Positions 1,009 to 3,551 of a DNA stretch of 8,541 bases are shown here, piece after piece; position 1 is the first letter of the stretch, and the number at the start of each line of letters is the position of its first letter. A program made the translations under genes and the position numbers. This stretch comes from Deltaproteobacteria bacterium RIFOXYA12_FULL_61_11. GTDB lineage: Bacteria > Bdellovibrionota_F > JAHFAK01 > YA12-FULL-61-11. Where the stretch lies: positions 272-8,812 of the forward strand of contig MGSU01000171.1 in NCBI GenBank assembly GCA_001799195.1, read 5' to 3'. The notes beneath the pieces are model-generated. The model searched no databases, was not told the origin of the DNA, and saw only the letters and a program-made list of their open reading frames with translations.

Positions 1009-1080
1009 AGCAACGCGACGTACGAGATGACGCGACCACTCGGTCCCAATGCGACCTCGAGGCAGGGGCACAATAGTCCC

Positions 1081-1165
1081 TGATTTTCGATATTTTCTAT
1101 GTTTCTTGTTTACATTTTTTCATTTATTATTTTGTTATTCTTTAAATTATTTTTTTTATAATATT
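1081..1165. other. AT-rich island upstream of structured element copy 1
   Basis: These 85 bases hold only 11 G or C (about 13% GC) in otherwise GC-rich surroundings, and the plus strand is strongly T-rich. The island ends exactly where similarity between the two 119-bp elements begins. An island of the same size and composition, but not the same sequence, precedes copy 2. The position suggests a promoter-upstream region (UP element, bent DNA, or a site for an AT-binding nucleoid protein). That role is inferred. Open frames crossing it look spurious. Confidence 0.7.
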
Positions 1166-1182
1166 TTGGCACGTATAATGAA
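1166..1182 (+). promoter_or_regulatory. Putative sigma-54-like (-24/-12) promoter of small RNA copy 1
   Basis: TTGGCACG followed by TATAATGAA gives a GG and a GA doublet separated by ten bases. The sigma-54 consensus is TGGCAC-N5-TTGCA with GG and GC ten bases apart. The -24 half is perfect; the -12 half is imperfect (ATGAA for TTGCA). A start about 12 bases downstream would fall near 1192-1194, just before the first hairpin. TATAAT at 1174-1179 could instead be a sigma-70 -10 box, but the -35 position is only a T run and TATAAT is not kept in copy 2 (CATATT). Confidence 0.45.
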
Positions 1183-1191
1183 GTTATCGTT

Positions 1192-1278
1192 GTCGGCGTG
1201 GCTGTCACGGCGTGACAGTCTACTCCATGAGTTGTTTCCACTGGCCTGAAAGGAGAAGGTGCAAACCTTCTCCTTTTT
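1192..1278 (+). ncRNA. Candidate stand-alone small RNA, copy 1
   Basis: The predicted transcript of about 85-90 nt has three parts. Hairpin 1 has arms 1200-1208 and 1212-1220 with loop GGC: nine pairs including one G-U. The linker 1221-1248 can form a small ACTC/GAGT stem (1222-1232) and then TTGTTTCC. The terminator hairpin 1249-1276 is capped by GCAA, a GNRA tetraloop only when read on this strand. Compared with copy 2, four of nine pairs in hairpin 1 differ and every one still pairs (G-C to C-G, G-U to G-C, C-G to U-A, U-A to C-G); the terminator shows a further A-U to G-C change. This pattern implies selection on structure. The nearest plus-strand gene downstream is over 4 kb away, so a cis riboswitch or attenuator is unlikely. 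The start is inferred from the promoter motif. I do not recognise it as a named RNA family. Confidence 0.72.
1249..1278 (+). terminator. Intrinsic terminator of small RNA copy 1
   Basis: AAAGGAGAAGGT and ACCTTCTCCTTT form a perfect 12-bp stem around a GCAA tetraloop, with five T residues at 1274-1278 on the plus strand. In the opposite direction the T run is only three bases, so it should work best for plus-strand transcripts. It may also partly stop transcripts from the convergent lipoprotein gene ending at 1330. Confidence 0.88.
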
Positions 1279-1329
1279 GATTCGCGGCGATAGCAGCATA
1301 GGACATGGACCACCCACGAACGCGGAGGG

Positions 1330-2326: not shown

Positions 2327-2977
2327 TCAACTACCGAGGGATCGTTGCTGATCGTCTCGCTCTGACGGAGGAAGTACCCTGCACCCCCCCTCCTCTGCAG
2401 GAACCTGGGAAGACGGCAGCGCCTTGGTTAAGGCCGAAGAGGGCAAAGCCGAAGAGGGCAAGGCGTTCGAGGGAATCGCATTGGAGGGAATTCCATTCGC
2501 GGGAATGGCGTTGGCGGGAATCGCATTGGCCGGAATGGCTTCGGCGTCAAGGGAGAGTTTCAATCCCTCTTCACCAAAATCGACCTCCTGACCGGTGGCA
2601 CCGAGGCGTACCCGCAAGGCAACGAGCAAGGTAAGGTTCGACGGCAGCGCCAGATCGACACCCCGCTCGTCTAGCCTCTTGGACGCTTCGGTCTCATCCA
2701 TGCGCCAAGCTTGCAAGGCATCGGCGGACAATGCGCTGGAAGGCAGCGCCATGGTCAATCCCTCTTCGAGCCGATACCCACCACCCTCCTCTTCGCTCAA
2801 GAGCTCCACCCTTAGCGGAGTCGCAGCCTCTGAAACCGCGAGGACAGGCACCGCGGCCATATCCGCAGGGTCTTCCGGTCGGGAGCCAGTATCTCTCTCA
2901 TCCTCGTTAAAAATGCAGGACAACCCTGCGAGCAGCAGGGACCCACAAGCATAGAGACAGAGACGCGATCTCTTCAT
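2327..2977 (-). CDS. N-terminal part of a repeat-bearing lipoprotein, ended early by a frameshift
   Basis: The ATG at 2975-2977 is preceded by the G-rich site AAGGGGGGG. Residues 1-21 form a lipoprotein signal: basic start (MKRSR), hydrophobic core (SLLLAGLSC), with Cys21 as the probable lipidated residue. The -3 to -1 residues GLS are a loose lipobox. An acidic tether follows (EDERDTGSRPED). Residues about 45-145 are a soluble region of alternating hydrophobic and acidic stretches in which ALPSS-like words recur. Residues 147-190 are tandem five-residue units of the type A-I/L-P-A/S-N/S. After the G7 tract (residues near 196-198) the predicted tail turns into CRVLPPSERDDQQRSLGS and stops; this looks unlike the rest, whereas the alternative frame continues a plausible protein. 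Likely causes are a genuine frameshift, a slippery tract, or an assembly error. The gene lies 53 bp downstream of the small membrane protein gene, probably in one operon. Molecular function is not recognised. Confidence 0.72.
   Translation of the reverse strand: MKRSRLCLYACGSLLLAGLSCIFNEDERDTGSRPEDPADMAAVPVLAVSEAATPLRVELLSEEEGGGYRLEEGLTMALPSSALSADALQAWRMDETEASKRLDERGVDLALPSNLTLLVALRVRLGATGQEVDFGEEGLKLSLDAEAIPANAIPANAIPANGIPSNAIPSNALPSSALPSSALTKALPSSQVPAEEGGCRVLPPSERDDQQRSLGS
2384..2390 (-). other. G7 homopolymer at the reading-frame break
   Basis: Seven G residues on the coding (minus) strand follow codons for Pro-Ala-Glu. With seven, translation reaches a stop at 2327. With six (or nine) it continues in the frame of the 1330-2322 region, open to its stop at 1330. 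The tract is the only obvious slippage-prone site in the overlap. Confidence 0.7.
2408..2539 (-). repeat. Tandem 15-bp coding repeats (AIPAN / ALPSS pentapeptides)
   Basis: The minus strand encodes AIPAN three times, then GIPSN, AIPSN, ALPSS, ALPSS, a four-residue ALTK and a final ALPSS. The 15-bp units drift in third positions and grade from one end (AIPAN) to the other (ALPSS), as expected for stepwise duplication and divergence. The five-residue period with a hydrophobic residue per unit recalls pentapeptide-type beta-solenoids, though the consensus is not the classical A-(D/N)-L-x-x, and the Pro-rich units could also be an extended stalk. Confidence 0.88.
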
Positions 2978-3336: not shown

Positions 3337-3421
3337 AAAATATAATATTGACGTATGTTTTCAGTTTGCATATTTTATATTAACATTTTGTATTTTATTT
3401 TAATTATTATTATCATACATA
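3337..3421. other. AT-rich island upstream of structured element copy 2
   Basis: These 85 bases hold 12 G or C (about 14% GC) and directly abut the start of element copy 2, exactly as the first island abuts copy 1, yet the two islands are not alignable beyond composition. This one also lies upstream of the divergent gene starting at 3237, so it could serve promoters in both directions. I found no convincing -35/-10 pair for the minus strand. A TTGACG at 3348-3353 with TATTTT 17 bp downstream is a weak plus-strand match. Confidence 0.7.
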
Positions 3422-3438
3422 TTGGCATGCATATTGAA
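3422..3438 (+). promoter_or_regulatory. Putative sigma-54-like (-24/-12) promoter of small RNA copy 2
   Basis: TTGGCATG-CATA-TTGAA has GG and GA ten bases apart and differs from the sigma-54 consensus mainly at the -12 C (TTGAA for TTGCA). It fits better than copy 1 in the -12 half. The conserved GG-N10-GA pattern in both copies, while the intervening bases vary, supports recognition of this pattern. The corresponding sigma-70 -10 would be CATATT with no proper -35. Confidence 0.48.
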
Positions 3439-3447
3439 GTTTTCGAT

Positions 3448-3534
3448 ATCGGCGTCGTTGCCACGCTGTGGCAACGTACTCTATGAGTTGTTTCCAATGG
3501 CCTGAAGGGAGAAGGTGCAAACCTTCTCCCTTTT
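3448..3534 (+). ncRNA. Candidate stand-alone small RNA, copy 2
   Basis: The architecture is the same as copy 1. Hairpin 1 is a perfect 9-bp stem (3456-3464 with 3468-3476) around loop GCT. The linker 3477-3504 contains ACTC-TAT-GAGT, where only the loop base changes from copy 1, followed by TTGTTTCC. The terminator hairpin has a GCAA loop. Hairpin 1 here has no G-U pair, and the changes from copy 1 are compensatory. The next plus-strand gene begins at 5421, with two minus-strand genes and that gene's own promoter between, so a cis leader is unlikely. The start is inferred from the -24/-12 motif. Family and targets are unknown. Confidence 0.72.
3505..3534 (+). terminator. Intrinsic terminator of small RNA copy 2
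   Basis: AAGGGAGAAGGT and ACCTTCTCCCTT form a 12-bp stem with a GCAA tetraloop, followed by four T residues (3531-3534). The reverse direction offers only two T residues. It sits between the small RNA and the convergent hydrolase stop and may shield both. Confidence 0.86.
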
Positions 3535-3551
3535 GATTCGTGCTTTCCACG

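Follow-up and report, generated by a model that had tools for sequence, protein, structure and literature searches.

Six related loci predicted to encode sibling small RNAs with sigma-54-type promoter-like sites in one deltaproteobacterial metagenome-assembled genome

The window, the whole stretch of 8,541 nucleotides analysed here, contains two copies of a structured element at positions 1166-1284 and 3422-3540. The gapless alignment of the two copies proposed earlier is reproduced, with 100 of 119 positions identical, and the similarity reaches 187 nt at 76% once the upstream DNA is included. Copy 1 is flanked by a phosphoketolase gene and a convergent ORF for a secreted protein, and a terminator-like stem-loop located 3' of the phosphoketolase gene (1063-1082, plus strand) separates that gene from the copy. 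An alpha/beta hydrolase gene is convergent with copy 2. Both copies are preceded by A+T-rich blocks (1081-1165 and 3341-3421): the 110 nt before position 1166 have an A+T content of 75%, against 43% in the neighbourhood, and the corresponding 110 nt of copy 2 have 73%. Elsewhere in the window, an ORF at 2327-2977 (minus strand) contains a run of 15-bp repeats at 2441-2545, encoding the repeated peptide NAIPA/NAIPS, SALPS.

The predicted small RNAs (sRNAs) of the window are about 92 nt long each and occupy positions 1192-1283 and 3448-3539 of the plus strand, with the start placed according to the position of the promoter-like site. Each contains a hairpin (hairpin 1; nine pairs at 1200-1220 in copy 1, and 3456-3476 in copy 2). 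It is followed by a conserved core and putative antisense seed (UACUCCAUGAGUUGUUUCC at 1221-1239 and UACUCUAUGAGUUGUUUCC at 3477-3495), and by the stem-loop of an intrinsic terminator (1249-1276 and 3505-3532), all on the plus strand; the terminator of copy 1 continues into a T-run and a conserved GATTC. Predicted folds of both copies are more stable than those of shuffled sequences (z of -4.1 and -5.6, with 0 of 200 shuffles as good). The earlier note counted four differing pairs in hairpin 1, all still paired, and two strand swaps among them; the count of differing pairs and the retention of all nine pairs are borne out, but only one change, G-C to C-G, swaps the strands. Of the remaining three, C-G to U-A and U-A to C-G are compensatory but involve no swap, and G-U to G-C alters one side only. 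When seven random substitutions, the number observed among the 18 stem bases, were simulated, all nine pairs survived in 0.07-0.09% of trials (P about 0.001).

The element is not confined to the window. A search at the DNA level through all 4.64 Mb of the genome, which is 87% complete, found four copies, and a covariance model of the core and terminator found six, with E-values from 1e-19 to 3e-6, so that the window pair gains four homologues, all being paralogues within one metagenome-assembled genome. The model recovers the core and terminator at 1221-1283 and 3477-3539 of the window (contig C171), and at C184:893-955, C113:7544-7604, C95:13604-13665 and C111:9381-9440 (minus strand). The C95 and C111 copies were left out of the model and still scored E-values of 7e-9 and 3e-6; the minus-strand matches in the lists of the model represent palindromic terminator stems only. 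All six copies are intergenic or located at gene ends, outside coding sequence, and each has its own promoter-like site and intrinsic terminator. The C113 copy has a LipA-like radical-SAM gene on one side and a convergent typA on the other, the C95 copy adjoins a peptidase M3 gene, and the C111 copy is convergent with a glycosyltransferase gene, the 3' end of which is overlapped by the terminator. Because no neighbour recurs and no downstream gene is consistent across the copies, the element is unlikely to act as a riboswitch or leader. The C95 copy has a gene with a sigma-54 activator domain about 5 kb away, at C95:18475-18975.

All six copies share a short core, AACUCCAU-N2/3-GUUGUU-(U)CC, which comes in two types. 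The A-type core, AACUCCAUGA-GUUGUUUCC, is carried by both window copies, where it starts with UACUC, and by the C184 and C113 copies; the B-type core, AACUCCAUAAC/AC-GUUGUUCC, is carried by the C95 and C111 copies. The terminator stem retains 12 pairs in every copy (72 of 72 cells paired), and five of the 12 pairs display changes on both sides, while slid controls are at most 74% paired. The matched A-U to G-C change noticed earlier between the window copies is real, and the stem changes in the added copies are likewise compensatory in the terminator and keep the pairing. The GCAA loop, previously singled out as a GNRA tetraloop, is indeed present in both window copies, but the other four copies carry loops of the GCUUC, ACCC, UGUUCG and UUCG types; since the loops vary in this way, we rejected a functional GNRA motif and regard GCAA as an ordinary terminator loop. 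Immediately behind the T-run of the terminator, all six copies carry an unchanged GATTC (1279-1283 and 3535-3539 in the window). The alignment also bears on the reading of the element as a short coding gene, with a 17-codon ATG frame (MSCF...) ending in a conserved TGA after the terminator. The frame is open in both window copies and in C184, but its middle part in C184 is shifted relative to the window copies, single-base deletions put C113 out of frame, and C95 and C111 have no ATG. The small ORF was rejected on frame and start codon as contradicted by the alignment, and a coding function is extremely improbable.

Only the two window copies carry hairpin 1, which extends them by 25 nt at the 5' end. 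The proposal of a stand-alone, multi-copy sRNA is thus supported by the homologues, the compensated terminator and the lack of an Rfam match, but the conserved part is the short core with the terminator, hairpin 1 being an addition in two copies. Consistent with the earlier impression of an unrecognised family, Rfam produced no relevant match at E-values up to 1 for the window and the four other loci. A DNA search of 59 other genomes (58 more distant ones and a sister genome) found no copies, and neither did the covariance model in the sister genome, the one further genome examined from this phylum. A pattern scan of 84,980 species, which required the exact core and promoter and which diverged relatives would escape, returned 29 matches, all attributable to chance; none had a terminator, none scored with the model, and none were Myxococcus records. 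Six scattered copies in a single genome and no homologues elsewhere are also what a non-coding dispersed repeat or the remnant of a mobile element might leave, with structural hairpins and no expressed gene. Such an origin is very unlikely, in our judgement: the copies are highly diverged yet keep the promoter-like site, the core and the paired terminator, they have neither shared flanks nor terminal inverted repeats, and the T-run is specific to one strand.

The promoter-like sites provide the second feature common to the family. A -24/-12-like site, YTGGCAY-N6-TG, with the layout of a sigma-54 promoter is present in all six copies (TTGGCACGTATAATGAA, TTGGCATGCATATTGAA, TTGGCATGACTAATGCT, TTGGCATAAACTGTGCT, CTGGCACGAGGGTTGAA and TTGGCACGAACCTTGGA), and the spacing between its two elements is identical in all of them. 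The window sites at 1166-1182 and 3422-3438 (plus strand) agree with the consensus at 11 of 13 positions each, the C at -12 being replaced by A in copy 1. The promoter-like site precedes the ACTC of the core by 30-32 nt in four copies and by 56 nt in the window pair, hairpin 1 accounting for the difference; with the start placed 24 nt past the GG doublet, the predicted RNAs are 64-67 nt long, and 92 nt in the window pair. The 110 nt upstream contain 60-75% A+T in five of the six copies, against 40-44% in their neighbourhoods, and 54% in C95. The density of the signature is 2.5-fold higher in noncoding than in coding DNA (26 sites across 179 kb and 97 across 1,683 kb, respectively), with six of the 26 noncoding sites being the sRNA copies themselves; among the other 20, C is the most frequent nucleotide at -12 (10 of 20). 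The C at -12 is normally near-invariant in sigma-54 promoters. Four of the six copies lack it (A in three, G in one), and for this reason a strong dependence on sigma-54 is not certain. In this genome RpoN is complete, possessing the activator, core-binding and DNA-binding domains of Pfam, and the sigma-54 activator domain has 32 matches, amounting to about 30 activators. The sequence TTGTTTACA at 1106-1114 (plus strand) is a candidate activator site of copy 1; TTGTNNACA occurs in three of the six copies, 58-60 nt ahead of the -24 element and at 58 nt in the two besides copy 1, and its recurrence in these three is no more than suggestive of a shared activator site.

As the earlier note proposed, the element has a promoter-like motif of its own, but the motif is of the sigma-54 type and not sigma-70-like. 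The same sRNA genes could in principle be transcribed by the housekeeping sigma factor, with the TGGCA motif serving another role. Copy 1 has the sequence TATAAT (1174-1179), and sigma-70 sites could be present in the A+T-rich DNA upstream. The TATAAT is missing from the other copies, however, nothing at copy 1 corresponds to the sigma-70-like matches close to copy 2, and the two window copies share no sigma-70 site; a sigma-70 promoter was rejected as not conserved. Together with the exact -24/-12 spacing in all six copies, this makes transcription by the housekeeping factor unlikely, and we continue with the sigma-54-type reading.

Read as its reverse complement, the A-type core resembles a ribosome-binding region (GGAAACAACTCATGGAGT). 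Across the 4.6 Mb of the genome, C176:2164-2181 is the sole non-self site with no more than one mismatch to the 18-nt complement, against a chance expectation of about 0.007. The next-best match has two mismatches, and the rest have three and occur near the control count. A looser pattern with two mismatches matched no more often than the control, and for this reason we rely on the one-mismatch site alone. The site precedes a small ORF with a signal-peptide-like start and no Pfam match (ATG at 2198, Shine-Dalgarno GGAGGA at 2185-2190), and the predicted pairing stops 2 nt before the Shine-Dalgarno sequence. The four A-type cores pair with this leader over 18-19 bp with one G.U, copy 1 forming 19 continuous pairs including the G.U and window copy 2 having an extra mismatch. 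When 1,423 gene leaders, covering about 40% of the genome, were ranked, all four A-type RNAs placed the C176 leader first; the pattern search covered the entire genome. None of 60 shuffled seeds did as well as the real seed. The predicted net energy of the complex is -17 to -25 kcal/mol for the A-type RNAs and -10 to -11 kcal/mol for the B-type RNAs and a reversed-leader control, and no near-perfect targets were found in the genome for the B-type cores. In the predicted folds the seed and the target adopt small hairpins that mirror each other, with loops of CAU and AUG, and contact between these loops could initiate the pairing. The predicted target gene has a sigma-54-like site of its own (GCGGCATACTTCCTGCT, C176:2097-2113), one letter off the signature and about 100 nt before the start codon, and the sRNAs and their target might share a regulator. 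By prediction, the A-type RNAs have a single target, at its ribosome-binding region. Alternatively, the repeated core might bind a protein instead of an mRNA, with multiplicity raising the dose of a titrating RNA similar to CsrB or 6S. Short, multi-copy genes and a core kept across both types, as if for a common ligand, would fit this idea, but the repeated GGA motifs of CsrB are missing, Rfam gives no match, and the core has its unique near-perfect complement at a ribosome-binding region, all of which render titration rather improbable.

Antisense pairing is accordingly the reading we favour: the six loci probably form a lineage-specific family of sigma-54-type sibling sRNAs, the A-type members of which repress the C176 mRNA. 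Transcription, sigma-54 dependence, repression and the role of hairpin 1 are here predictions drawn from sequence. The six genes (about 64-92 nt) would be stand-alone units that start from sigma-54-type promoters and end at intrinsic terminators of their own, and switching on an enhancer-binding activator of RpoN would lead to the six RNAs being made together. The A-type core (ACUCCAUGAGUUGUUUCC) would then pair with the leader of the C176 exported-protein mRNA just upstream of the Shine-Dalgarno sequence, blocking the binding of the 30S ribosome subunit and repressing the target. The B-type core may have drifted toward other targets, and hairpin 1 was probably added 5' in the window copies for stability or to keep the seed open. 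No stand-alone Hfq was found in the genome. Its sole Hfq-like match is a protein of 233 aa (C76:9174-9872) with a cold-shock domain and two weak Hfq-like domains (Hfq_1 at 84-117 and Hfq at 179-229, both under the Pfam cut-off); the protein has a full-length relative in the sister genome with 28% identity and possibly acts as an RNA chaperone in place of Hfq. More tentatively, and with some doubt, all these elements might constitute a lineage-restricted dosage circuit driven by sigma-54, in which six siblings with two seed types include A-type RNAs directed at one exported-protein mRNA with its own sigma-54-like site, the cold-shock-domain protein possibly assisting.

Sigma-54-dependent multi-copy sRNAs have been described mostly from a few proteobacterial genera. 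If the favoured reading is true, a Qrr-like design of redundant sRNAs under RpoN arose independently in a barely sampled phylum, and the family offers a target that is both specific and testable; in the two kinds of seed present in one genome, sRNA siblings would be seen diverging in their choice of targets. Vibrio Qrr1-5 are likewise several sibling sRNAs per genome, sigma-54-dependent, ending in intrinsic terminators and repressing mRNAs by antisense pairing (PMC8043402, PMC2680268, PMC5568312). The family described here resembles them in its six sibling copies, sigma-54-type promoters, terminators and predicted antisense action, but differs in its core, in lacking an Rfam match in sequence or structure, in a host genome in which no canonical Hfq was found, and in being unlinked to quorum-sensing genes. 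Pxr of myxobacteria, about 108 nt long, has a predicted sigma-54 promoter, paralogues within a Cystobacter genome and a host without known hfq (PMC5568312, PMC5684412). The predicted sigma-54-type promoter, the within-genome paralogues and a host in which no stand-alone Hfq was found are common to both. The pxr homologues, however, form three stem-loops and are flanked by the response regulator nla19 and an NADH dehydrogenase gene (PMC5568312), whereas the copies described here have one or two short hairpins and a terminator, and other neighbours, no copy having an NtrC-type regulator on one side and an NADH dehydrogenase gene on the other; by these descriptions they are set apart from Pxr. 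Neisseria NmsR and NgncR_162-163, the CsrB copies and Listeria LhrC are also duplicated sRNAs with a shared seed, although their seeds, hosts and promoters are others and the likeness is one of design only. With no Rfam match, and with a neighbourhood and fold that differ from those of Pxr, the family is filed neither as Qrr nor as Pxr, and we regard it as a new sRNA family that belongs to a known kind.
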